Of a stretch of 29,805 nucleotides of DNA, positions 2-29,805 are shown piece by piece. The DNA is taken from IMG/VR virus record IMGVR_UViG_3300050126_000013, positions 1 through 29,805 of that record, one strand, 5' to 3'. The position numbers were made by a program, and so were the translations under genes. The DNA is from a virus. The first letter of the stretch is position 1; each line of letters starts with the position of its first letter. Below the pieces are notes generated by a model. That model made no database searches. It saw nothing but the letters and a program-made list of their open reading frames with translations, and was not told the origin of the DNA.

Positions 2-220
2 CCTGACCCCTGGGGTTGGGACGATGTCGATCTGGTCACGCGCTACTGCATGGCTGAAGGCAACATCAAGATGCCAGAGTGTGTCGCGACGCACCAGTGG
101 CATCCGTCGACGCAGATCGATCAAGGTCCGAATGAGCGCTACTTCCAAGCGAAGCAAGCGGAAGGGGCAGACGAAGTCGCGAACCGCGGCTGCGAATGGG
201 GTATCGTGGTACCGCGATGA
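2..220 (+). CDS. Glycosyltransferase family 2-like protein, C-terminal part (5' end outside window)
   Basis: The frame is open from base 2 to the TGA at 218-220 and gives 72 residues. It begins with PDPWGWDDVDL, which matches the galactosyltransferase-type C-terminal motif WGWEDVDL of the complete glycosyltransferase at 1714-2412. It later carries THQWHP, a motif also present near the C-termini of the genes at 1714 and 3129. The N-terminal nucleotide-sugar-binding half lies outside the window. The stop overlaps the ATG of the next gene (ATGA). A GT-A fold sugar transferase is likely by homology to its neighbour; donor and acceptor are unknown. Confidence 0.75.
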   Translation, partial: PDPWGWDDVDLVTRYCMAEGNIKMPECVATHQWHPSTQIDQGPNERYFQAKQAEGADEVANRGCEWGIVVPR

Positions 221-1002
221 AGCCGATCTCGATCCTGATTTGCATCCCGACTGTTCCGGGACGCCAAGCTTACCTCTGCAATGCAGCAATCGGTTTCGCA
301 ACGCGAACACCGGCTGTCGAGTACCACTTCTCAATCGTGACCGACGCAGAGTCGGCTGGTGAAGGTTGGAACCGCTGCGCTGCGCAGGGCCTTGAGTGGT
401 GGCCGGAGTCGACCTTCCTGCACTTTGCCAACGACGACACGGTCTGCGCTCCGGGCTGGTGGCCGCCGCTGTATGAAGCGATTGAGCGCGGCTGCGTCCC
501 GTGCCCGCGGATCGAGCCTGCTGGCGGCCACATCGCCGGCAACATCTTCCAGGATCATCCACCGATGCCTCCTGGTGACAACTTCCCAGTGCCACGCGAC
601 AAGATGGCGTACTTCTACGCTGACCTGCCGGAAAACCAGCCGACTGAGGATTGGGCTGAGCTCAACCACGGCAACCTTCCAACCTGCTCGCGCGAGCAGT
701 GGGAATCTATTGGTCCGTTCCCACCGATTCACTACGGAACGGACGTGTATTTCTACCACCGCGCTCGACAGCTGGGCTTCCCGATTGTCGCGCGGATGAA
801 CTCCGTCTTCTACAACTTCAACGCGCCACAGGGTCGGCATAAGCCTGGTTGGTCTGAGCAGACGGCGCTCGACTACGACAACGTCTTCGCGCTGCCGAAG
901 TACATCTCAGGAGAATTGAAGCCAACGGAGCGCGATCCTCTCTGGCGGACACCAGAGGGGGAGCGTTTAGCTGCTAATTGGAGAAAGGCGGCCTTCGGAT
1001 GA
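217..1002 (+). CDS. GT-A (family 2-like) glycosyltransferase
   Basis: The 261-residue product starts at ATG 217, which overlaps the preceding stop as ATGA. A longer in-frame start at 196 would overlap the upstream gene by 25 bases and is less likely. The N-terminus, ISILICIPTVPGRQ, is the first strand and loop of a GT-A nucleotide-sugar-binding fold. FANDD at about residues 70-74 is in the place of the metal-binding DXD motif and is followed by a Trp-rich stretch (PGWWPP). The HQWHP motif of its neighbours is absent. It sits in a run of glycosyltransferase and methyltransferase genes, so it probably adds a sugar to a phage or host product. The substrate cannot be read from sequence. Confidence 0.7.
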   Translation: MKPISILICIPTVPGRQAYLCNAAIGFATRTPAVEYHFSIVTDAESAGEGWNRCAAQGLEWWPESTFLHFANDDTVCAPGWWPPLYEAIERGCVPCPRIEPAGGHIAGNIFQDHPPMPPGDNFPVPRDKMAYFYADLPENQPTEDWAELNHGNLPTCSREQWESIGPFPPIHYGTDVYFYHRARQLGFPIVARMNSVFYNFNAPQGRHKPGWSEQTALDYDNVFALPKYISGELKPTERDPLWRTPEGERLAANWRKAAFG

Positions 1003-1157
1003 GCGAGTACGAGATTACAGGCGAGCCACAAGAAGGTGGTTACATCGAGCAGGTCGAACTAGACCTGATTGCGAAGCCTCCTTATCTACTAGTTATCGAC
1101 ATCATCAGCGCTGCACCTTCAGATAAGACAAGCGTTTTGTCTGTTTGGCAGATATAA
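999..1157 (+). CDS. Small hypothetical protein (52 aa)
   Basis: An ATG at 999 overlaps the upstream stop as ATGA and the frame stays open to TAA 1155-1157. The product is acidic at the N-terminus (MSEYEITGEPQEGG) with a short hydrophobic stretch (PYLLVIDII). No domain is recognisable. The coupled start and the lack of any other explanation for this interval favour a real gene. Its 3' end overlaps a possible TTG start (1145) of the methyltransferase downstream. Confidence 0.5.
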   Translation: MSEYEITGEPQEGGYIEQVELDLIAKPPYLLVIDIISAAPSDKTSVLSVWQI

Positions 1158-1165
1158 CGAGCGAT

Positions 1166-1717
1166 ATGACGGAACTTGACCCAGTCGCTGTCGAGGCCGA
1201 CAAATTCGCTAATCAGCTGGTGTACGAGCTTTCGTGGTTGGTGGAGATTCTGCGGAAGAATCCACCGTCAAGTGTGCTGGAGATCGGGGTCGAGCACGGC
1301 GGCTCGATGTGGGCGTGGGCGCAAGTCGCTACAGATGATGCGCGATTGATGGGCATTGACGCGGCTTTGTCAGGGAACGGGTTCGAGGAAACAGTAACTC
1401 GCTGGCCGTGGCCTGCACGAGCACAGCAGACGCTCTGTTGGGTACAGGCAATGAGCCAGAGCCCCGAGGCGGTTGCAGAAGCTACCGCACGCGCACCGTT
1501 TGACTTCCTCTTCATCGACGCAGACCACGCACTAGAGCCAGCAAAACTAGACTTCGAGTTGTACTCCCCACTAGTACATCCGGGCGGTATCGTCGGTTGC
1601 CATGATGTCGTAAACCAGGCGAAAGAGTTCTGGGCATGGATCAAGCAGGAACATAAGACGGACGAGTGTGTGGACCCAAATAATCAAGGCTGTGGAATGG
1701 GCGTCATCTACCTGTGA
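1166..1717 (+). CDS. Class I SAM-dependent methyltransferase
   Basis: The product is 183 residues from ATG 1166. An in-frame TTG at 1145 would add seven residues but overlaps the preceding small ORF; neither start has a clear Shine-Dalgarno site. SSVLEIGVEHGGS at about residues 35-47 is motif I (SAM-binding glycine loop). FLFIDADH (near residue 115) and VHPGGIVGCHDV (near residue 140) match the later strands and metal/substrate region of Methyltransf_24 or cephalosporin-hydroxylase-like small-molecule and sugar O-methyltransferases. Position between glycosyltransferases suggests methylation of a sugar. The stop overlaps the GTG of the next gene. Confidence 0.75.
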   Translation: MTELDPVAVEADKFANQLVYELSWLVEILRKNPPSSVLEIGVEHGGSMWAWAQVATDDARLMGIDAALSGNGFEETVTRWPWPARAQQTLCWVQAMSQSPEAVAEATARAPFDFLFIDADHALEPAKLDFELYSPLVHPGGIVGCHDVVNQAKEFWAWIKQEHKTDECVDPNNQGCGMGVIYL

Positions 1718-2412
1718 GCATCACGCTTCTGATATCGACGTTCAATCGCACCCCGCTACTGAATCGCTCGCTCGCACGGCTGCTCACTTTCACACCACCA
1801 GAACAGATCATCATCGTCGACGACGGCTCCTCAGACGGCTGCGAAGAGACGTGCTGGCACTACACGCAGCAGGGCTTACCAATCACGTATATCTACCTTG
1901 ATCGGCCGTTTGATTCGAATCCGTGCTTGCCACGGAACATCGGCATCAAGCTAGCGACGACGACCGACATCCTCGTGACCGAACCGGAGATTCTCTTCCT
2001 GACTGACATCGTCGACCAAACCGGAGCTGCACGTTCGACCAAACCGGAAGACATCCTCTACGGGCGGACGTATCACGAGCCCGCAGCCGGCGCGACACTC
2101 GACGAGTGCGAGACCATCGATCACTTCCCGTTCTACTCGCTCTACAAGCGCGAGTGGCTCGAGGAAGTCGGCGGCTACGATGAAGCTTTCCCCGAAGCGT
2201 GGGGTTGGGAAGATGTCGATCTCAACGGCCGGCTCGCTGAGATCGGTCATCACACAGTTCGCATAGACGGCTGCGCTGCAGTACACCAGTGGCATCCGTC
2301 GCGAGTAAACGAAGCCGTCGAACAGGAACGTCACGCGCGAGCAAAGCGTTGGCCACAAGACATCGAAGCCAACCAGGAGGCGGGCTCGTGGGGAGTTATT
2401 CCAAGCACCTAG
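1714..2412 (+). CDS. Family 2 glycosyltransferase with galactosyltransferase-type C-terminal motif
   Basis: The 232-residue product uses GTG 1714 in a GTGA overlap. ITLLISTFNRTPLLNRSL is the classical GT2 N-terminus and IIIVDDGSSDG (residues 32-42) the nucleotide-binding DDGS motif. LPRNIGIKLA (72-81) is the conserved RNxG region. The usual DXD site is replaced by VTEPE (88-92), so metal binding may differ. GGYDEAFPEAWGWEDVDL (153-170) is the glyco_transf_7C-type acceptor/galactosyl motif. VHQWHP (190-195) recurs in the partial gene at 2-220 and in the gene at 3129. It is likely an active sugar transferase, with acceptor unknown. Confidence 0.85.
   Translation: MSITLLISTFNRTPLLNRSLARLLTFTPPEQIIIVDDGSSDGCEETCWHYTQQGLPITYIYLDRPFDSNPCLPRNIGIKLATTTDILVTEPEILFLTDIVDQTGAARSTKPEDILYGRTYHEPAAGATLDECETIDHFPFYSLYKREWLEEVGGYDEAFPEAWGWEDVDLNGRLAEIGHHTVRIDGCAAVHQWHPSRVNEAVEQERHARAKRWPQDIEANQEAGSWGVIPST
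2375..2380 (+). promoter_or_regulatory. Ribosome binding site that fixes the GTG start at 2388
   Basis: AGGAGG lies seven bases before GTG 2388 and inside the end of the upstream glycosyltransferase gene. It selects this GTG over the far upstream in-frame ATG at 2289, whose extra residues are arginine/serine-rich frame-shadow sequence. Confidence 0.7.
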
Positions 2413-3026
2413 AAGCTGAGATCGCTACGTGGGTCATCGACAACCCAGAGGAACGATCTGAGAAACTAACGCGCGAGCGCATACGCCACTACGGGATCGT
2501 GAAGGCGCTGCTGCTCGACAAGCTGCCGACACACCGCATGGCAATCCTTGAAGTCGGCGGTGGCCCGCTGCCGGTCTCCGACTTGCTCCCGTTCCGGCGT
2601 CGGCTTGTAGTCGATCCCTGTACGGAGTCATATCGAACGATCGCACCGTGCCCCGACCACGTCGATGCAGAGATCGAGCGATTTGCGCTGCGGCAAGAGT
2701 GGGATCTGATCATTGCCACGAACAGCCTTGATCACGTGCAGCACGTCGGCGCCGCGCTCAAGGTGATGCACAGAGCGCTACGACCAGGCGGTTACATCGC
2801 GATTCTCTGTGCGGAGAACAACGCTCTAACGCATCCGCACCCGGCGCACGAGCACAACATCACGGCGCGAACGATCCATGCGGCGTTTGACGCGGACTAC
2901 GAGACCGTCTGGGAACTCGACTACGAGAACGACGGTTTCCGCTATGGTTGGGTGCCGTTCGAAGGCAAGCGCGGCCAACCAGCGTTTGCGCTGCTAATGC
3001 GGAAAGCAGGAGGCTACAGTGGTTGA
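2388..3026 (+). CDS. Class I SAM-dependent methyltransferase
   Basis: The 212-residue product starts at GTG 2388, seven bases after AGGAGG. AILEVGGGPLPV (52-63) is the SAM-binding motif I. LVVDPC (73-78) carries the acidic motif II residue, IIATNSLDHV (108-117) is motif IV and LRPGGYIAIL (131-140) motif V/VI. This is the layout of Methyltransf_11-type enzymes. The C-terminal part is aromatic and acidic (WELDYENDGFRYGW). Its place between two glycosyltransferases suggests it methylates a sugar or glycan precursor. The gene overlaps the upstream glycosyltransferase by 25 bases and the next small ORF by 8. Confidence 0.75.
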   Translation: MGSYSKHLEAEIATWVIDNPEERSEKLTRERIRHYGIVKALLLDKLPTHRMAILEVGGGPLPVSDLLPFRRRLVVDPCTESYRTIAPCPDHVDAEIERFALRQEWDLIIATNSLDHVQHVGAALKVMHRALRPGGYIAILCAENNALTHPHPAHEHNITARTIHAAFDADYETVWELDYENDGFRYGWVPFEGKRGQPAFALLMRKAGGYSG

Positions 3027-3132
3027 CGCTCTTCGAGATCTCGCAACGGCGATCCGCGAGCTGATTCAGTACCTGCGTGCGCAAGAGCAGCGTGATAACA
3101 ACCGGCGGCTCTTCGAGCAAAACATCAGATGA
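3019..3132 (+). CDS. Small coiled-coil protein (37 aa)
   Basis: GTG 3019 follows AGGAGG at 3008-3013 and the frame ends at TGA 3130-3132, overlapping the next ATG as ATGA. The product (VVDALRDLATAIRELIQYL, then a Gln/Arg-rich tail) looks like one amphipathic helix. No family is recognised. The strong ribosome site and the coupling on both sides support translation. Confidence 0.55.
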   Translation: MVDALRDLATAIRELIQYLRAQEQRDNNRRLFEQNIR

Positions 3133-4016
3133 GCGAGTTTCGTTGCGGTGTTGTCATTCCGACATGCGCTGGCCGTGAGGAGAATCTCCGCGCTTCGTTC
3201 GAGAGCCTTGTCGCGCAGACGTATTCAATTGAGCGAATCGTGGTGGTACACGATGGCGGCGACCCGGTTGCCGTCTCCTACGTGCCGAGCTTTATCGAGA
3301 ATGCCTACGTCGCCAAGCACCGCCCAGGGCTTGAGCAGCCGCGCAACATCGGCGCTCAACGGCTGCAGGAGATCGCGCCGGATTGCACACACGTTTGGTT
3401 CGTAGACTCCGACGTTGTGCTCGAGCCGACAGCACTCGAAGCGTTCGCCGCTGCGGCAGCCCTTCACGACGAGCCGCGCATCCTCATCGGACCATACGAC
3501 TTCCTCGCACCAGGCGAGACGGGGCTTCATCCCGAAGCGCGGCAAGACCTTCGCTGGAACAGCTTCGACGATCACGGACCCGAAGAGATCCACTACCACC
3601 CTGTCGCGGCTGGTTGTGCGTGCTTCAGCGGCAATCTCGTTTGGCCGCTCAAGGAGTTTCTCGATATCGGCGGCTTCTGGAACGAACTCCACCACGGACG
3701 TTGTGAAGATGGTGAGCTCGGCATCCGCGCGACGATGGCTGGGATCGGGGTTTCGTTCGTTCGCGGTGCACGCGGCTATCACCAGTGGCACCCAGCTGAC
3801 AGTGTTCGAATCGAAGCAATCAACCGTCGCGATGTACCGATGATCAATCGTCGACATCCGTTTATGCCCGATGGTGTGGGCGACCACCTCTTGATGACAG
3901 CGAAGGACGGAATCCGTTTCGACTTCCGCTGCCCTGCCTGTGACAAACGCATGAACAGCCTGCTCTACTGGGAGCACTGTGGCGGCACGAACTGGGAGTG
4001 TACCGCCACTAACTGA
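3129..4016 (+). CDS. Family 2 glycosyltransferase with C-terminal zinc-finger-like tail
   Basis: The 295-residue product starts at ATG 3129 (ATGA overlap). CGVVIPTCAGREENL (6-20) and IVVVHDGG (37-44) are the GT2 N-terminal motifs. LEQPRNIGAQ (68-77) is the RNxG region and VWFVDSDVVLEP (89-100) holds a canonical DXD (D93, D95). WNELHHGRCEDGELGIR (184-200) is in the place of the acceptor-site ED motif. YHQWHP (217-222) is shared with two neighbours. The last 30 residues contain CPAC (268-271) and two further Cys (284, 291), spaced like a zinc finger, which is unusual for a glycosyltransferase. It is the most canonical enzyme of the cassette. Confidence 0.85.
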   Translation: MSEFRCGVVIPTCAGREENLRASFESLVAQTYSIERIVVVHDGGDPVAVSYVPSFIENAYVAKHRPGLEQPRNIGAQRLQEIAPDCTHVWFVDSDVVLEPTALEAFAAAAALHDEPRILIGPYDFLAPGETGLHPEARQDLRWNSFDDHGPEEIHYHPVAAGCACFSGNLVWPLKEFLDIGGFWNELHHGRCEDGELGIRATMAGIGVSFVRGARGYHQWHPADSVRIEAINRRDVPMINRRHPFMPDGVGDHLLMTAKDGIRFDFRCPACDKRMNSLLYWEHCGGTNWECTATN

Positions 4017-4035
4017 ACTGACAAAGGAGCCGCGT

Positions 4036-4416
4036 GTGCTTGCAGCGTTTGACGTAGATGGCACAATCGACGCGGACCCTCCTCTCTTTCTCTCGCTGAT
4101 GCAAGCGCTCCGCGCTGCGGGGCACAGCGTTGTTGTCTTGACTGGCGCCGGCACCGACAAGGTGGCGCCCGACGACATCGCACAGAAGAAGGAATACCTT
4201 CAGAGCCTTGGTTGCGCAGACGCGTACGACAAGCTCGTCGTCTTCGCGGCGCCTCCTGCTGAGGCGAAGGCTGCATGGATCAAGAACAACGGTGTCGATG
4301 TGCTGTTCGACAACAACCGCGGCAATGCTCAAGCCGCGAGCCAATACTGCACAGTGCTCCTGCCGTGGGCATCACGCACCGGAAACAAGAACAACGCAGT
4401 GGATGGTGAAAGCTAA
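4036..4416 (+). CDS. HAD-superfamily hydrolase (small phosphatase)
   Basis: The 126-residue product starts at GTG 4036, seven bases after AAGGAG. FDVDGTID (5-12) is HAD motif I with nucleophile D6 and acid/base D8. VVLTGAG (33-39) holds the motif II threonine (T36), K78 or K83 may serve as motif III, and VLFDNN (89-94) is motif IV. The core is minimal, without a large cap domain, as in polynucleotide or sugar phosphatases. In this cassette it may dephosphorylate a sugar phosphate; a nucleic-acid-end phosphatase cannot be excluded. The stop overlaps the ATG of the next small ORF. Confidence 0.75.
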   Translation: MLAAFDVDGTIDADPPLFLSLMQALRAAGHSVVVLTGAGTDKVAPDDIAQKKEYLQSLGCADAYDKLVVFAAPPAEAKAAWIKNNGVDVLFDNNRGNAQAASQYCTVLLPWASRTGNKNNAVDGES

Positions 4417-4505
4417 TGACGACTGATCCTAGCCGCCCGATCGCTCCTGCGCCGGCTCCTCAGATCCCTAAGAAGGTTGTCGTTCTCGTCAGCAAGGACC
4501 GCTGA
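4416..4505 (+). CDS. Tiny proline-rich protein (29 aa)
   Basis: ATG 4416 overlaps the HAD stop as TAATG and the frame ends at TGA 4503-4505, directly before the GTG of the protease gene. The product has an Ala/Pro-rich segment (RPIAPAPAPQIPKK) followed by VVVLV. No family is recognised. It may be a real peptide or merely a coupling ORF carrying ribosomes to the protease start. Confidence 0.4.
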   Translation: MTTDPSRPIAPAPAPQIPKKVVVLVSKDR

Positions 4506-4506
4506 C

Positions 4507-5190
4507 GTGTGCTGGTCTTGTGGTGCTGCGGTGAACGATCCGACGCTCGCACCACATCCACACAACGATGGCCGCTCGATCACAACGTCTGTTCTTCAAG
4601 ACGCAGCTGACCACGCAGGAACAGACATTCCTGGTGTCGTCGGGAATCTCGTGAAGACACTCGCTGGTCAGAAGTTCACAGTTGCGAAGGGAGTACAGAT
4701 GCACGACGAAGTGATCAACATCGGCCGTGCGGTCGCTGAGGCTTACGAGGAGTTCGTGGCAGTGCGTGTGTTGAAAGCGGTCGATGAATCGCGCTACACA
4801 CTTGGACTTGCCTACCCCGCAATGCGTGCTGATGTCTCGCGCGCTGCTGATGGCCATCGCGACTTTGTCGGCGCCGAAGCTCTCGAGAAGTGTGCATGGG
4901 AGTGGATGCGAAAGAGCGGCGACATTGGTCTCTTCCACCGTGAAGGAACCAGTGGTCACGCCACTGTAGTCGAGAGCTACATCTACCGCGGTCCTGACTG
5001 GCATCAGGTCTCGCCGGTTGATGAAAAGAGTTACCTCGTGAAGTCTGGTGACTGGATGCTAGGCACCGTCTGGGACGAGTACGGCTGGCAGTTGGTCAAG
5101 GCAGGACTGGTCAAAGGCTGGTCTCCAGAAGGCGGAGCAAAACGCGCAACCGCGAGCCCTGAGCGGCTTGCCCTACTCAGGAGTGCTTGA
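4507..5190 (+). CDS. XkdF-like prohead maturation protease
   Basis: The 227-residue product starts at GTG 4507, eight bases after AAGGA. A TTG at 4477 would overlap the preceding ORF. The central and C-terminal part resembles the XkdF-type phage serine protease: GDIGLFHR with H144, HATVVESYI with E156, and LVKGWSPEGG with S206 (the position of GFSxGG in relatives) are plausible catalytic residues. GTVWDEYGWQLVKAG precedes the serine motif as in other prohead proteases. The N-terminus has a single CxxC (MCWSCG). The product should cleave scaffold and capsid termini during head maturation. The neighbours, assembly protein and capsid, agree. Confidence 0.75.
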   Translation: MCWSCGAAVNDPTLAPHPHNDGRSITTSVLQDAADHAGTDIPGVVGNLVKTLAGQKFTVAKGVQMHDEVINIGRAVAEAYEEFVAVRVLKAVDESRYTLGLAYPAMRADVSRAADGHRDFVGAEALEKCAWEWMRKSGDIGLFHREGTSGHATVVESYIYRGPDWHQVSPVDEKSYLVKSGDWMLGTVWDEYGWQLVKAGLVKGWSPEGGAKRATASPERLALLRSA

Positions 5191-7295
5191 TGAAAACTGA
5201 AGACGAGATCACCGAACTGACGATGCTTGACGCATCCAAAGTAGCCGGGGTCGCAAGTCCTGCGAACGGGACTCCGTTCCTGCTGCTCAAAGCTGCGGCA
5301 ACCGCTGAGGACACACAGAAGCCCTGCACAACCTGCAAGGGTGACGGCAAGATCCTCAACAACAGCCGGAAGTGCCCAGACTGTAACGGCACCGGCAACG
5401 TCGCGAAGACCGCAGAGGAACTCGGGCTCGTGAAGTGCGTTGCGTGCGACGGAACTGGTAAGCCTGCTGGCCCTGCGTTAGTTCCATGCGCCGAATGCGG
5501 TGGTGCTGGTCTCGTGAAAGCCGAAGCCGACGATATCGAGAACGAAGTCACGAAGGCTGACGAAGCCGACGAGCAAGAGGACGAGATGACAGACGACGCG
5601 GAGAAGGCGAAGCTGTCCGCCGCGGATCGGAAGAAGCTGCCGAAGAAGAGCTTTGCGTACGTGGACCCAAAGGGGAAGGGGCACCTTCCCATCCATGACG
5701 AGAATCACGTTCGTGCAGCGATGGGTCGACTCAGCCAGCAGGACTTCAGCGATGCGCCGGACCCAGCCAAGGCAAAGTCACTCGCAGCTCGCAAGATCAA
5801 AGCGGCAGCATCCAACCACGGCATCGTGATCGAAGACGATTCCGATGTTGCACAGCAAGCGAAGAAGGCGCTCCAACTCACAAAGGACGAGCAGAGCTGG
5901 TTGATGGAAGACCCGACCCTCAAGAAGGGTGACGTGCAGGATGCGCTCGACGGGACAAAGACTCCCGCTGAAGCAGGGCACCTAGCAACGGGTGGCAGTG
6001 AACTCGCCGGACCTGTCACAGACGGGGTATACGATCCACCGCACCCTGGGCCGGCTGGAGTTGTGGAGACCGGCACCAGCGGTGTAACGTCTTCACGCCG
6101 CGGCGGCGAGTCTGCATACATCATCCCCGCTGAAGACAAGATCAACGGGCCTGCTGTTGCTCGTGATCCAGCGACCTACATGAAAGCTATCGCTGCTGCT
6201 TCGTTGATAGAAGCGATGGGCGCGATCGAAGAGCAGCGAGCAGCAATCAAGGACGGCAAGTTCTTGCAGTTGGATCAGCCAACAGGAGCTGCCGCAAACG
6301 AACCTTCCAGCATGCCGTGGGAGACTTACGACGCCGCGACGCTCGCACAGGTTGCGATGGTACTCGCCAGTGCTGGCTGCGCGATCGACGCGATTCAACA
6401 GCGCGAAGCGGTCGAAGCAGCTTCTGGCCAGTCCAGCGACTACCAAGATTCATGGGCGCTCGGCGACGCAGAACAGGCGCTCGAGTACGCGCTTGGCATC
6501 GCAGCGAGACTTGCCTACGGCGAAGCCGCAGCTGCTACTGCAGCCGGTGACGCAACGAAAAGCGTGGAGCTTGTGGAGAAGCTTGGCCGCAAGCTCAGCG
6601 GAACGAGTGAGTCTGCGCTTCGCGCGGCTCGCGATCATCTCACCAGCGTGCTAGGCGATGGTGGGAGTAAGACGGCCAGCGGCGCTGGCTCGAACTCCAA
6701 TGAAGGAGAAACGATACAAATGGAAGTCACGAAGAGCGACTTCGTAGCCAGCGTCGATGAGATCGTCAAGGCGCGGCTCAAGGCCGAGAAGAAGGCAGAG
6801 AAGAAGGCAGCCAAGGAAGCGAAGAAAGCTGCTGAACTCGCTGCTGCTTCTAGCGACGAGACAGTCGATGAGGCTGAGAAGAACGCCAACAACGGTGGAG
6901 ACATCAGCGCTGCTGACATCAAGCCGAAGAGCGAGCAAGATGCTGACGACGTGAACTCCGTTGGTGGAGCCGTCAACAGCGAGTACATCAACAAGGGTCT
7001 GGAGACGGCCTTCGAGACGATCACCAAAGAACTCGGTGAAGTCAAGGGCCTCGTCACCAGGATGGGACAGAAGCCGCGTTCGGGCGGTCCAGTTCTCGAC
7101 GGTACGCCGCGGGGTTCATTCCCGGCTGAGGGCGGTCGTCACTCGGAGACAGTGACCAAGAGCGAAAGCGGGGAGATGATCGAGCGTCTTGAGAAGGAGC
7201 TCGAAGACACCAAAGACCCACAACAGGCTGCTGATCTCCGGTTGCGCATCACGCGCGAGCGTCTCTACGAGGCGCACCTGACCGGCCAGATCTGA
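5190..7295 (+). CDS. Large head-assembly protein with DnaJ-type zinc domain and scaffold-like C-terminus
   Basis: The 701-residue product starts at ATG 5190, six bases after AGGAG, in a TGATG overlap with the protease gene. Residues 10-35 (LTMLDASKVAGVASPANGTP) resemble the pAN segment near actinophage proteases. Four CxxCxGxG motifs at Cys 46/49, 62/65, 83/86 and 100/103 form a DnaJ-like cysteine-rich zinc domain. Residues about 140-215 (KKLPKKSFAYVDPKGKGHLP) resemble a short domain often found in phage protease or portal proteins. An alpha-helical region follows at about 310-430. The C-terminal 190 residues are Lys/Glu/Ala-rich coiled coil, typical of scaffold. It probably chaperones capsid assembly. 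Confidence 0.65.
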   Translation: MKTEDEITELTMLDASKVAGVASPANGTPFLLLKAAATAEDTQKPCTTCKGDGKILNNSRKCPDCNGTGNVAKTAEELGLVKCVACDGTGKPAGPALVPCAECGGAGLVKAEADDIENEVTKADEADEQEDEMTDDAEKAKLSAADRKKLPKKSFAYVDPKGKGHLPIHDENHVRAAMGRLSQQDFSDAPDPAKAKSLAARKIKAAASNHGIVIEDDSDVAQQAKKALQLTKDEQSWLMEDPTLKKGDVQDALDGTKTPAEAGHLATGGSELAGPVTDGVYDPPHPGPAGVVETGTSGVTSSRRGGESAYIIPAEDKINGPAVARDPATYMKAIAAASLIEAMGAIEEQRAAIKDGKFLQLDQPTGAAANEPSSMPWETYDAATLAQVAMVLASAGCAIDAIQQREAVEAASGQSSDYQDSWALGDAEQALEYALGIAARLAYGEAAAATAAGDATKSVELVEKLGRKLSGTSESALRAARDHLTSVLGDGGSKTASGAGSNSNEGETIQMEVTKSDFVASVDEIVKARLKAEKKAEKKAAKEAKKAAELAAASSDETVDEAEKNANNGGDISAADIKPKSEQDADDVNSVGGAVNSEYINKGLETAFETITKELGEVKGLVTRMGQKPRSGGPVLDGTPRGSFPAEGGRHSETVTKSESGEMIERLEKELEDTKDPQQAADLRLRITRERLYEAHLTGQI
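5325..5510 (+). repeat. Four CxxCxGxG repeats (DnaJ-type cysteine-rich domain)
   Basis: The motifs CTTCKGDG, CPDCNGTG, CVACDGTG and CAECGGAG occur in order. This is the number and spacing style of the DnaJ/Hsp40 central domain, where two pairs each bind one zinc ion. No J-domain (HPD motif) is present in the protein. Confidence 0.9.
6703..6708 (+). promoter_or_regulatory. Internal ribosome binding site for a nested scaffold start
   Basis: AAGGAG occurs in the coding sequence 11 bases before an in-frame ATG at 6720. It sits exactly where the linker (SGAGSNSNEG) ends and the charged coiled coil begins, which is where a separately translated scaffold would start. Confidence 0.45.
6720..7295 (+). 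CDS. Putative nested scaffolding protein (in-frame internal start)
   Basis: Translation from ATG 6720, after AAGGAG at 6703-6708, gives a 191-residue protein identical to the C-terminus of the large assembly protein. It opens with MEVTKSDFVASVDEIVKARL, continues with a Lys/Ala/Glu-rich helix and a disordered linker, and ends with a second helix (MIERLEKELEDTK) and the short tail LYEAHLTGQI. The arrangement parallels lambda C/Nu3, where the scaffold is encoded as the in-frame 3' end of a larger head gene. The start is inferred from the ribosome site; the protein may instead exist only as a domain of the long form. Confidence 0.5.
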   Translation: MEVTKSDFVASVDEIVKARLKAEKKAEKKAAKEAKKAAELAAASSDETVDEAEKNANNGGDISAADIKPKSEQDADDVNSVGGAVNSEYINKGLETAFETITKELGEVKGLVTRMGQKPRSGGPVLDGTPRGSFPAEGGRHSETVTKSESGEMIERLEKELEDTKDPQQAADLRLRITRERLYEAHLTGQI

Positions 7296-7334: not shown

Positions 7335-8813
7335 ATGGATGCGAAAGAGATCACGGCGGAGACGCTGGCGATGCTGAAGAAAGCAACGACCAGTGGCCTT
7401 CTCGTGGCAACGGGCGTCCAGGGCGTAGACCTCAGCGGACTTGTTTCGCTAGTCCCGGTCAACGTTCCGGCCCGCAACAACACGAGCGCGTTCCCGCGCA
7501 CGATCGCTGGTGAAGGTAGCCAGACGGCGACGTGGCGAGCACTGCTCAACATCAACAGCGCGCAAGCGAACCCGGCCGTTGGCCGTGACTACGCCGGCAC
7601 GCTGGTGCAGTTCTCAGAGCAGGATTGCTTTGCTCAATACCAGCCGCTCGCAGAAGCTGGCCGTGTGACGCTCGACGCGGTTGCGGTCGCTCGCAACTTC
7701 GCGGACGCGCTCGCGACAGCAGAGCTGCAGACCCTGAACCAGCTGTTCATCGGTCAAGACATCTACATCGTCAACGGCCAAGCTTGGTCGTTGGGTACGC
7801 CTCCGACCCCTGTCACCACAGCGGCGACTTCGGGCGGCAGCATCACGGGCGGCACGACGGTGTACGTGAAGGTGTGCGCGCGCTCCGGCACGAACTACTA
7901 CTACGGTGGCAACTCTGTCGCTTCGGTAGCGGGCAGCATCACGACAGCGACAGGGCAGAACACCAACACCGTTTCCGCGAGCATCGCCGCAGTAAAGGGC
8001 GCGGTCGCTTACGACTGGTACGTCGGCTCTTCAGCGTCGAGCCTGTTCTACTACACCACAACCTCCGTGGCGAACGTCACGATCACGGCAGTGCCGACTA
8101 CGGCGCAGAGCGTTCCAACGACTCTGCCGTTGCTGTCGACCATCGCTCCTCCGAGCACGCCTCCGTCCGCTGACACCAGCTGGAATCAGAACTGGTTCAA
8201 CGGTTTGATCGCAACGACTCTGGGCGACTACGGCTCTTCGGGGCCGGTCACTCCAGGCACGGGCCAAAACCCAAGCGGTGCGACGTTCATCGACAACGGT
8301 GGCGCTGCATTGGCCGCGTCGGGCGCAAGCATCACGCTGCTCGACACGATCAACGACGATCTCTGGACTTCGGTCCAGCTGTCGCCGACCGCGTACATGG
8401 TCAACTCGCTGCAGGGAGACGAGATCAGCAAGCTGCTGCTCAACTCGACTGCATCGACTACGTTCCTGCCTCCGACTGATGCAGACGCGCGTACGAACCT
8501 GGCTGGTGGCGGGTACGTCGGGCGCTATATCAACAAGGCTGCAGGCGGCGTGCCTGTCGCGATCGAAGTGCATCCGCACGTTCCTCCGGGAACGATCATC
8601 GCGCGCACGGATCGCGTTCCGTTCCCCGGTAGCAACATCGGTTCGGTGTTCGAAGTGCGGTGCCAGTACGACACCATGCGCTTCGATTACGCCGCGAACT
8701 ACAACCCCGGCGTCGTAGGTGGCGGACCGCGTTACGACTTCGAGATTCGCTCGATGGAGGCGCTCATCAACCGCGCTCCCGTCGCGCAGGCTGTTGCGAC
8801 CAACATCGCGTAA
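7335..8813 (+). CDS. Major capsid protein, HK97-like fold with inserted beta domain
   Basis: The 492-residue product starts at ATG 7335, eight bases after AGGAA. Position after protease and scaffold and before connector genes, and the overall pattern, indicate the major capsid protein. The flanks fit: an N-terminal E-loop/spine-helix region (VTLDAVAVARNFADALATAE at 111-130) and a C-terminal axial domain (MVNSLQGDEISKLLL, then RVPFPGSNIGSVFEVRCQYD and YDFEIRSMEALINR). Residues about 155-280 are a Thr/Gly/Ser-rich insertion (SITGGTTVYVKV, AYDWYVGSS) that looks like an Ig/fibronectin-type beta sandwich and would project from the capsid surface. Alternative structural roles are unlikely. Confidence 0.85.
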   Translation: MDAKEITAETLAMLKKATTSGLLVATGVQGVDLSGLVSLVPVNVPARNNTSAFPRTIAGEGSQTATWRALLNINSAQANPAVGRDYAGTLVQFSEQDCFAQYQPLAEAGRVTLDAVAVARNFADALATAELQTLNQLFIGQDIYIVNGQAWSLGTPPTPVTTAATSGGSITGGTTVYVKVCARSGTNYYYGGNSVASVAGSITTATGQNTNTVSASIAAVKGAVAYDWYVGSSASSLFYYTTTSVANVTITAVPTTAQSVPTTLPLLSTIAPPSTPPSADTSWNQNWFNGLIATTLGDYGSSGPVTPGTGQNPSGATFIDNGGAALAASGASITLLDTINDDLWTSVQLSPTAYMVNSLQGDEISKLLLNSTASTTFLPPTDADARTNLAGGGYVGRYINKAAGGVPVAIEVHPHVPPGTIIARTDRVPFPGSNIGSVFEVRCQYDTMRFDYAANYNPGVVGGGPRYDFEIRSMEALINRAPVAQAVATNIA

Positions 8814-9214: not shown

Positions 9215-9691
9215 GTGCGCGTCGTTTGTCCGTACACAAGCCTGCATCCGCTTGCGGAGCAGGCGTTGGCGGACTATGCCCCACTTGCTGACTGCCTAGA
9301 GCTCCACGAAGCTGACGACTACTACAAACTTCTGTGCGAGCTCTGGGCAGCCGGCGAAGCTTTCCTCGTTGTCGAGCACGACATCGAGATTCACGAAGGT
9401 GTGCTACCAGCGCTCGAGACCTGTCCTGAACCGTGGTGTCTTTACGGCTACGGCGGCCCAACGCCGGAGCACCTCTTTATCGGAAGTCTCGGCTGTACTC
9501 GTTTCTCTGCTGCGTTGCTTACAGCAGTGCCCGCACTGATGACCGCGTTGCCGGTGCGGCACTGGCAGCGGCTCGACTGCGAGATCTTGCCTGCGCTCCG
9601 AACTGCCGGCTTTGAGCCGCACGTTCACGAGCCTCCGGTCCTACACCATCACGTCTACAACGACTGCTGCGCATGCGGCAAGGAGCATTGA
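9215..9691 (+). CDS. Glycosyltransferase-like protein in the head-tail region
   Basis: The 158-residue product starts at GTG 9215, immediately after the preceding stop. The N-terminus (MRVVCPYTSLHPLAEQAL) resembles a GT-A first strand. AFLVVEHDIEIHEG contains EHD in the place of a DXD motif, and PEPWCLYGYGG and GSLGCTRFS follow as in short phage glycosyltransferase-like proteins. The C-terminus is His- and Cys-rich (VHEPPVLHHH, then CCACG), so a metal site is plausible. It lacks the HQWHP motif of the upstream cassette. The fold assignment is tentative. If right, it is a minimal sugar transferase placed between capsid and connector genes. Confidence 0.55.
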   Translation: MRVVCPYTSLHPLAEQALADYAPLADCLELHEADDYYKLLCELWAAGEAFLVVEHDIEIHEGVLPALETCPEPWCLYGYGGPTPEHLFIGSLGCTRFSAALLTAVPALMTALPVRHWQRLDCEILPALRTAGFEPHVHEPPVLHHHVYNDCCACGKEH

Positions 9692-28358: not shown

Positions 28359-28373
28359 CAAGAGAGGTCAATG

Positions 28374-28946
28374 ATGGCAAAGCCCACACACACAATTGAC
28401 GAAGCGCTCAAGAACTTCGACCTGATCAGCGGCGCCGGGTCGGAAGACTCGAAAGAGGCGTGTGCGATGACGCTGCTCGCTTGGGTCGCTGGGCGCGAGT
28501 GGACCGACCGCCCTCCGTGCGCGCATCGATTGATTCGAAACGAAGTCGTCCAGGTCAACGATGCTAGCGGTACGACCAAGGCGATGCGCACAGCGATTGT
28601 CAAGGCTGGCGAGACGGGCATCCTTGATACGTGGTGGATCACTGACCAGGTAATCGTCTGGGCATTCGCTACGCCGAAGGGGCAGAAGCGCTCGACGAGC
28701 CGTTACAAGCTTCTTCTAGCCGCGCTCGAGCGGATCTCGGCTTGGAAGCTTGACAAGGGCCTGCCGCCCACACTTTGCGAGGCGGACCTCTCCGGGGCGA
28801 ACCTCTCCGGGGCCAACCTCTCCGCGGCCAACCTCTACGGGGCGAACCTCTACAGGGCGAACCTCTACAGGGCAATTGGTACACCACTAGGAAGGATGCT
28901 GCCCGGTTGGGCGCTCGACGATGCTGGTTTGTGGATGAAGTCGTGA
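28374..28946 (+). CDS. Pentapeptide-repeat fusion protein (190 aa)
   Basis: ATG 28374 is six bases after GAGAGG; ATG 28371 is an alternative. Residues 1-130 are a globular domain of unknown function (EACAMTLLAWVAGREWTDRP, VQVNDASGTTKAMRTAIVKA, GTWW-type aromatic core, then a basic helix). Residues from about 137 contain six pentapeptide repeats (A[DN]L[SY]x), followed by a short non-repeat tail ([15 protein letters not shown]). Six repeats make only one and a half coils of the beta-helix, so it is a minimal or shortened array. It overlaps the next gene as GTGA. Confidence 0.75.
   Translation: MAKPTHTIDEALKNFDLISGAGSEDSKEACAMTLLAWVAGREWTDRPPCAHRLIRNEVVQVNDASGTTKAMRTAIVKAGETGILDTWWITDQVIVWAFATPKGQKRSTSRYKLLLAALERISAWKLDKGLPPTLCEADLSGANLSGANLSAANLYGANLYRANLYRAIGTPLGRMLPGWALDDAGLWMKS
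28782..28871 (+). repeat. Six 15-bp pentapeptide-repeat units
   Basis: Units [30 protein letters not shown] are encoded by near-identical 15-mers built on AACCTCTCCGGGGCG and AACCTCTACAGGGCG. The central Leu codon is always CTC, indicating recent tandem duplication or conversion. Confidence 0.9.
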
Positions 28947-29281
28947 GCGTTGACCGCAAAGCAGTGATGCTGGAGATGCTCGTCACTGGCGCGACGTTGC
29001 AGGAGGTTGCTGACTTCTTCGGTCTTACCAAGCAGCGGGTCTCGCAGATCGTTGGGCCAGACCCCGAAGGGAAGCGACGAACGACAAGTCGGCAAAAGCA
29101 CCGTGAGCATCGCTATGTGGAATTCAAGCTGACGCACAGCAACGAAGTTCTTGAAGCGCGTCGCAGCGGTCATTCGATTGCTCGAATCGCATATGGCCGG
29201 CATTTACCTTACGACTTCGTTCGGCGAGTTATCGCTGATGCTGGGTTACCGTCCAACTGGACAGGAGGTGCAGGGAAATGA
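28943..29281 (+). CDS. Helix-turn-helix protein (112 aa), sigma region 4-like
   Basis: GTG 28943 overlaps the previous stop (GTGA); GTG 28931 is an in-frame alternative. [20 protein letters not shown] followed by RVSQIVG is a clear HTH of the sigma-70 region 4/LuxR type near the N-terminus. A second, similar helical repeat occurs in the C-terminal half ([20 protein letters not shown], then [12 protein letters not shown]). Between them lies a basic segment ([15 protein letters not shown]). It probably binds DNA and may regulate this small operon. Confidence 0.7.
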
Positions 29282-29805
29282 TCGAGATTCGGAACGTCGA
29301 CGGGTCTGTGCTTTACACAGCTAAGTCGGCTACAGACGTACGTCAGGCGCTACAGGAGGCAGTCGCGCAGCACGCCAACCTCTCCGGGGCGAACCTCCGC
29401 GAGGCGAACCTCTCCGAAGCAAACCTCCGCGAGGCGGACCTCTCCGGGGCGAACCTCTACGGGGCGGCCCTCTCCGGCGCCGACCTCTACAGGGCGAACC
29501 TCTCCGGGGCGGACCTCCGCGAGGCGAACCTCTCCGGCGCCATCCTCTCCGGCGCCAACCTCTCCCGCGCCGACCTCTACGGCGCCAACCTCTACGGCGC
29601 CAACCTCTCCTGGGCGGGCCTCTGCGGAGCGACCCTCTGCGGAGCGAACCTCTCCAGGGCGGACCTCTCCGGCGCCATAGGCATCGCTCCCGAGCTCTCG
29701 ACCGACCTGCTCCTACTTCTAGATCAGGTCGGCAAGATCCGTGCCTACAAGCTCGTGACGAGTGACCTGCGAAGCCCGATCAACGACAAGCAGCGCCTGA
29801 AGTAC
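29278..29805 (+). CDS. Pentapeptide-repeat protein (3' end outside window)
   Basis: ATG 29278 overlaps the HTH gene stop (ATGA), with AGGAGG at 29263-29268 upstream. The frame is open for 176 codons to the window end. A 32-residue N-terminal segment ([20 protein letters not shown]) leads to twenty uninterrupted pentapeptide repeats, with Leu at every central position, predicting a right-handed quadrilateral beta-helix of five coils. A different segment follows ([20 protein letters not shown]) that starts a C-terminal domain. Such proteins (Qnr/MfpA type) can mimic DNA and bind gyrase; that role is unproven here. Confidence 0.8.
29374..29673 (+). repeat. Twenty tandem 15-bp pentapeptide-repeat units
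   Basis: Twenty units of consensus A[DN]L[SYRC]x run without interruption. Core codons GCG/GCC-AAC/GAC-CTC are nearly invariant while positions four and five vary (TCC, TAC, CGC, TGC; GGG, GAG, GGC, CGC). Confidence 0.95.

Follow-up and report, generated by a model that had tools for sequence, protein, structure and literature searches.

A truncated glycosyltransferase and methyltransferase cassette in an actinophage head operon as a probable virion-glycosylation system

The linear virus record IMGVR_UViG_3300050126_000013 (29,805 bases, analysed in full and referred to here as the window) is a fragment of a soil phage, in which a run of glycosyltransferase (GT) and methyltransferase (MT) genes stands upstream of the head genes, with the left end of this cassette falling outside the contig. 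The locus raises the question of what such enzymes act on: the virion, the surface of the host, the phage DNA, or nothing that concerns the virion at all. To our knowledge, there are few phages in which glycosylation of the virion has been shown. We consider it probable that the genes constitute a late-expressed virion-glycosylation cassette, inserted into the head operon of an actinophage with portal-side genes before it and the HAD and protease genes after it.

The cassette and its place in the head operon

The cassette consists of long overlapping frames on the plus strand, for which start sites were picked from overlaps, ribosome-binding sites and relatives. It begins with GT0 (2-220), truncated at its 5' end by the contig end and comprising the C-terminal 72 amino acids of a glycosyltransferase, followed by GT1 (217-1002), a putative GT-A glycosyltransferase, and an open reading frame (ORF) of 52 amino acids (999-1157) that is coupled to GT1 by ATGA. 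MT1 (1166-1717) is an S-adenosylmethionine (SAM) methyltransferase of the Methyltransf_24/CmcI-rhamnosyl O-methyltransferase type, GT2 (1714-2412) a GT-A glycosyltransferase with a GT7-type C-terminal domain, and MT2 (2388-3026), which has AGGAGG ahead of it at 2375, a SAM methyltransferase (Methyltransf_23/11). A 37-amino-acid ORF (3019-3132) links MT2 and GT3 (3129-4016), another GT-A glycosyltransferase. Overlaps of the ATGA/GTGA kind occur at 217, 999, 1714 and 3129, and the G+C content (0.56-0.60) lies inside the range of the remaining window. The initial annotation had listed four glycosyltransferases (one partial), two SAM methyltransferases and a HAD protein, all of which are borne out as overlapping plus-strand frames, GT1 with weak support. 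The ORFs of 52 and 37 amino acids were absent from that annotation; it had also described the run as joined directly to the protease, which is nearly so, except that an ORF of 29 amino acids (4416-4505) stands between the HAD gene (4036-4416) and the head maturation protease of XkdF type (Peptidase_S78_2, 4507-5190, plus strand).

Virion glycosylation is the best explanation for this arrangement because cluster O phages have a methyltransferase and three glycosyltransferases in the same interval and virions that are reported to be glycosylated, and because other glycan cassettes occupy it in relatives of the window. In the cluster O mycobacteriophages Corndog and Catdawg, an O-methyltransferase and three glycosyltransferases are encoded between the portal and the capsid maturation protease. 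Of the four Corndog enzymes, all were seen in infected cells and none in virions, few capsid peptides were found, and on these data the authors proposed that the capsid is modified (PMC4351075). According to a passage in PMC11600133, which cites Freeman et al. (2023), the cluster O enzymes modify both capsid and tail tube proteins. Catdawg genes 32-37 show the same combination of methyltransferase and glycosyltransferases in the portal-protease interval, and the window likewise has several soluble glycosyltransferases and a methyltransferase in one run.

The window belongs to a group of actinophages related to the Arthrobacter phages Mufasa8 and Sonali. Identity to the capsid protein was 65-80% for the 16 viral contigs that a search with it recovered, 44% for Mufasa8 and Sonali, and 43-46% for eight prophage-like loci of actinobacteria (Streptomyces, Arthrobacter, Pseudarthrobacter, Subtercola); a protease alignment search recovered 80 loci. 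In about 42 distinct records spanning both genes, the portal-protease interval is mostly shorter than 0.8 kb and often empty. The synteny search among related phages that had been recommended for this locus was rewarding, as the same interval holds other glycan cassettes in a few members. In L040/L041 it measures 6.7 kb and contains the HAD gene, then GT genes and two nicotinamide adenine dinucleotide (NAD)-epimerases, then the protease; three of the GT genes match PF00535, PF13704 and TOD1/MUCI70, and three further genes are GT-like with weak or no Pfam support. L050 carries the same cassette, and the glycosyltransferases of L040 and L050 show no similarity to those of the window. L103, a record cut before the portal, has one glycosyltransferase (PF00535/PF13704), separated from the protease downstream by one small ORF; shortly upstream of that glycosyltransferase and the protease, at 3-434, L103 also encodes collagen-like GTQGTTGTQG repeats, a possible glycan acceptor. 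Glycan genes are found after the capsid gene as well: in L006/L007 an epimerase gene and GT-like genes separate the capsid gene from that of the adaptor, and L119 has a PF00535 gene 3' of its capsid gene. PF00535 alone misses the glycan genes of L006/L007, which were seen by inspecting the region after the capsid gene, and the zero count obtained with this profile among relatives is therefore too strict. Mufasa8 and Sonali have no PF00535 genes. No methyltransferase was detected by PF13489 in 15 relatives.

The right boundary of the interval is the protease, and the left boundary, with the portal itself off the contig, is inferred from relatives. Since the default order in these relatives is portal (portal/Mu-F gene), HAD and protease, the window cassette is, as judged from gene order, an insertion upstream of the HAD gene. 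The HAD gene had originally been counted as a member of the cassette. However, it is common among the closer relatives, often directly 5' of the protease, and it stays in place between portal and protease even where a relative has no cassette at all; for this reason gene order assigns it to the head module and not to the cassette, and participation in glycan synthesis was rejected as the default. The HAD-like protein has DVDGT and DNN motifs, and DVDGT (DxDGT), K51/K78 and D92-N93 are invariant in six sequences (the window and five relatives); no Pfam model scored above cut-off on it. As a separate observation, the portal genes of relatives (L007 835-4260, L009 1522-2697) carry a fused or adjoining NUDIX domain (PF00293), with Mu-F-like domains coming after.

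The cassette enzymes and the HQWHP block

Pfam profiles identify GT2 (PF00535, E-value 8e-10; PF02709, 4e-6), GT3 (PF00535, 2e-8), MT1 (PF13578, 5e-14; PF04989, 2e-6), MT2 (PF13489, 6e-8) and the protease (PF14550, 5e-13). The PDB matches of MT1 are O-methyltransferases, and MT1 is probably a sugar O-methyltransferase. GT1 misses the cut-off of the family profile (PF00535, E-value 0.044, 14.2 bits vs. 23.3) and has no HQWHP; NDD is present at its DxD position, and it is a putative glycosyltransferase by these sequence features. An AlphaFold2 model of GT1 alone, computed without an alignment, was discarded as unusable (predicted local distance difference test score, pLDDT, 35). GT0 and GT2 are paralogues, GT0 matching the C-terminus of GT2 (34% identity over 70 amino acids; BLASTP E-value 6e-12). 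The xED and C-terminal histidine (C-His) motifs are present in GT0 (WGWDDVD), GT2 (WGWEDVD) and GT3 (CEDGE), each with HQWHP, GT0 being aligned solely through its similarity to GT2. At the DxD position, GT3 has DSD and GT2 has EPE, and GT0 is truncated ahead of that place. The C-terminal tail of GT3 is rich in Cys and resembles a zinc ribbon (CPAC...EHC...WEC), which is unusual for a glycosyltransferase.

Among 50,697 phage records, no close homologue of the window glycosyltransferases and methyltransferases was found, with distant matches to large uncultured phages only; in viral contigs, GT1, GT3 and MT1 have no close homologues and GT2 has distant ones only. Bacterial relatives of the GT2/GT7C type occur in Actinomycetota genomes at 27-33% identity.

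As had been noticed at the outset, HQWHP is shared by three of the four glycosyltransferases (GT0 at 92-106, GT2 at 2284-2298 and GT3 at 3780-3794). In many GT-A enzymes the C-His binds metal. GT2 matches the E. coli K4 chondroitin polymerase (2z86/2z87, E-value 5e-9), with HQWHP aligned with AYHQEPP, and 2z87 was the prototype of the GT-A analysis in which the C-His was defined, with G335 as the G-loop glycine and H386 as the C-terminal histidine (PMC7185993). Because G335 and H386 both fit the GT2-2z87 alignment given one numbering offset, the first His of HQWHP corresponds to the GT-A C-His. Further, sampled Actinomycetota PF02709 proteins carry HQHHP, HQHHG, HQYHE and HLDHP in the corresponding position. 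This makes the block a generic one, and the suggestion that it might be an unnamed family signature was abandoned on comparison with GT-A families: HQWHP is an ordinary C-His block, aligned with His386 of 2Z87, and was rejected as a new signature.

Possible targets of the enzymes

If the virion is the target, the soluble GT-A glycosyltransferases would take nucleoside diphosphate (NDP)-sugars of the host in the cytoplasm, sugars would be added sequentially onto a head or tail protein during assembly, and the two methyltransferases would cap or modify the glycan. A GT-A-like protein of 158 amino acids, encoded beside the capsid gene, may attach the first sugar. Which protein is modified and in what order are predictions of this model, and the benefit could be shielding, adsorption or evasion.

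This 158-amino-acid protein (9215-9691), a predicted minimal GT-A protein, is encoded on the plus strand between the capsid and head-tail adaptor genes, and its sequence matches nothing in PHROG or Pfam and nothing meaningful in the PDB. An alignment of its family (11 sequences) shows an invariant ExD, a G-loop-like LGC, D121, H138 and H144, and AlphaFold2 on this alignment gave a model with pLDDT 88 and a predicted template modelling score (pTM) of 0.84. In Foldseek, the best PDB and viral structures are GT-A enzymes or GT-A-like nucleotidyltransferases (E-values 5e-5 to 2e-3; template modelling (TM) score by query length 0.4-0.64). The model supports a GT-A fold, and the protein is a putative enzyme. 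Profile searches located the family between capsid and adaptor genes, or just 3' of the capsid gene, in the window, L004, L006/L007, L009, L018, L040/L041, L050, L082, L087, L098, L110, L112 and L119; its place in L062 and L070 is upstream of the protease. L006, L040 and L050 have two copies each, and many other lineage members, including Mufasa8 and Sonali, have none by the same search. We tentatively suggest, as a possibility that is itself rather unlikely, that capsid glycosylation has two layers, in which the conserved minimal GT-A protein adds the first sugar and exchangeable cassettes, occupying the portal-protease interval or following the capsid gene, give related phages different outer glycans, in a manner that may be likened to bacterial surface polysaccharide variation. 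The small capsid-adjacent family offers a compact test for a dedicated capsid-priming enzyme.

Alternatively, the enzymes might act on the actinobacterial host, changing a glycan of its cell wall or a glycolipid and so serving superinfection exclusion or lysogenic conversion. Phage glycosyltransferases often modify the host surface, the Actinomycetota relatives of GT2/GT7C type described above would fit such a role, and lineage relatives occur as prophages. However, neither the window (a fragment) nor eight other records examined contain a GtrA-type flippase, and no hydrophobic stretch with a Kyte-Doolittle mean above 1.2, and hence no membrane-spanning segment, is present in the window glycosyltransferases and methyltransferases, so the GtrA and membrane-anchored GtrB of a Gtr-type O-antigen conversion module are both missing. 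A cassette placed within the head operon would be expressed late, too late for surface conversion to be of much use, and the cluster O precedent points to virions. We therefore regard host-surface modification as improbable. Still less probable is that the glycosyltransferases attach sugars to modified bases in the phage DNA. Viruses are known to encode glycosyltransferases for DNA hypermodification, as cited in a passage of PMC12619734, and the methyltransferase domains could act on base modifications, but no thymidylate-synthase-like gene was found in the window (a fragment) or in eight other records, in searches that detected their positive controls, and the genes next to the cassette include none for DNA replication or base modification. 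A search for Tet/JBP was also empty, but its control was silent as well, so that this result carries little weight.

The cassette might also be a set of passenger (moron) genes, acquired not long ago at a site that tolerates insertion and either host-directed or without function in the virion. In L006/L007, L013, L051 and L053 the interval is filled by unrelated, non-glycan genes; the site thus tolerates other cargo, and this tolerance could by itself account for where the cassette lies, to which the lack of close homologues among phage records may be added. Yet independent glycan cassettes occupy the same interval in several lineages, and the frames are intact and tightly coupled by ATGA, a sign of maintained function, making a passenger origin about as doubtful, in our judgement, as DNA hypermodification.

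In favor of virion glycosylation, beyond the cluster O arrangement and the cassettes of relatives, are the absence of a GtrA flippase and of membrane stretches in the cassette proteins, the predicted GT-A protein beside the capsid gene, and the glycosyltransferase and epimerase genes just 3' of the capsid gene in L006 and L119. Several points weigh against it. For this phage, glycan and acceptor are predictions, and the contig lacks the left end of the cassette; apart from a weak match between GT2 and Catdawg gp35, no homology to the cluster O enzymes can be recognised; and in G426, G428/G429 and G454 glycosyltransferases lie far from the head genes, so that linkage to these genes is not universal. 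The major capsid protein (7335-8813, plus strand) does have the inserted Ser/Thr-rich domain to which a methylated glycan on a structural protein had been tied, but such an insert is equally present in relatives without this cassette (33% Ser+Thr in the window, 21-31% in ten relatives) and hence is no evidence for a glycan acceptor. We rejected it as a marker for being non-discriminating; the proposal of a virion glycan itself is strengthened by cluster O and the relatives.

Some neighbouring features are recorded here as side observations. The scaffold-position protein (5187-7295, plus strand) has Cys-rich DnaJ-like CxxCxGxG repeats in its N-terminal part, which are unusual for a scaffold and also occur in the corresponding gene of L048, L053 and L119. 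At the right end of the window (28371-29805), two frames both match phrog_7713 and related families, suggesting a repeated domain. An endonuclease VII-type gene is directly 3' of the capsid gene in L040 (13005-13808, PF02945) and L050 (10127-10933).

Comparison with known systems

At the level of single enzymes, GT2 resembles KfoC (PDB 2Z86/2Z87), of the GT2-CHS/GT7/GT27 clade, over the N-terminal domain and in xED and C-His. However, KfoC is a two-domain polymerase, whereas the window enzymes are single small domains with EPE for DxD in GT2 and no sign of a polymerase. The 158-amino-acid protein has fold matches in the PBCV-1 capsid glycosyltransferase (PDB 2P72, E-value 1.3e-3) and Ardmore Gp87 (1.1e-3), compared with which it shows about 12% identity and TM scores of 0.43-0.64, is much smaller, and has ExD for DxD.

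The cassettes of L040/L041 and L050 resemble that of the window in occupying the same interval, beside the same protease and scaffold family, with several overlapping GT-A-like genes. They differ in their GT families (PF13704, TOD1/MUCI70), in having two NAD-epimerases and no detected methyltransferase, and in that the L040 cassette is inserted after the HAD gene and the window cassette before it.

The closest parallel in organisation is cluster O (Corndog gp35-38; Catdawg gp33-36), where a methyltransferase and glycosyltransferases are likewise encoded by overlapping genes upstream of the capsid gene, and where Catdawg gp35 has a C-His block, YHLYHL, comparable to HQWHP. By contrast, the head genes of cluster O are unrelated, and the window adds a second methyltransferase, has at least four glycosyltransferases, and places a HAD gene between cassette and protease. 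The enzymes are non-homologous beyond the GT2-gp35 match (BLASTP E-value 0.002-0.004 over 22 amino acids; phmmer 2.5e-5 in a 7-sequence set); a comparison of L006 15070-15930 with Catdawg gp34 was suggestive (hhalign E-value 1.7e-4, probability 24%). Because the homology test gave that weak match only, the window cassette is, by sequence comparison, a counterpart in function of the cluster O cassette and not a descendant of the same cassette. The recurrence of unrelated glycan cassettes in one interval, both in this actinophage lineage and in the unrelated cluster O, suggests that virion modification can be predicted from the position itself, and also that the sugars of phage shells may vary through gene exchange. 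Taken together, the cassette is real and intact but left-truncated, and most likely a new example of the known kind of system for virion glycosylation and glycan methylation.

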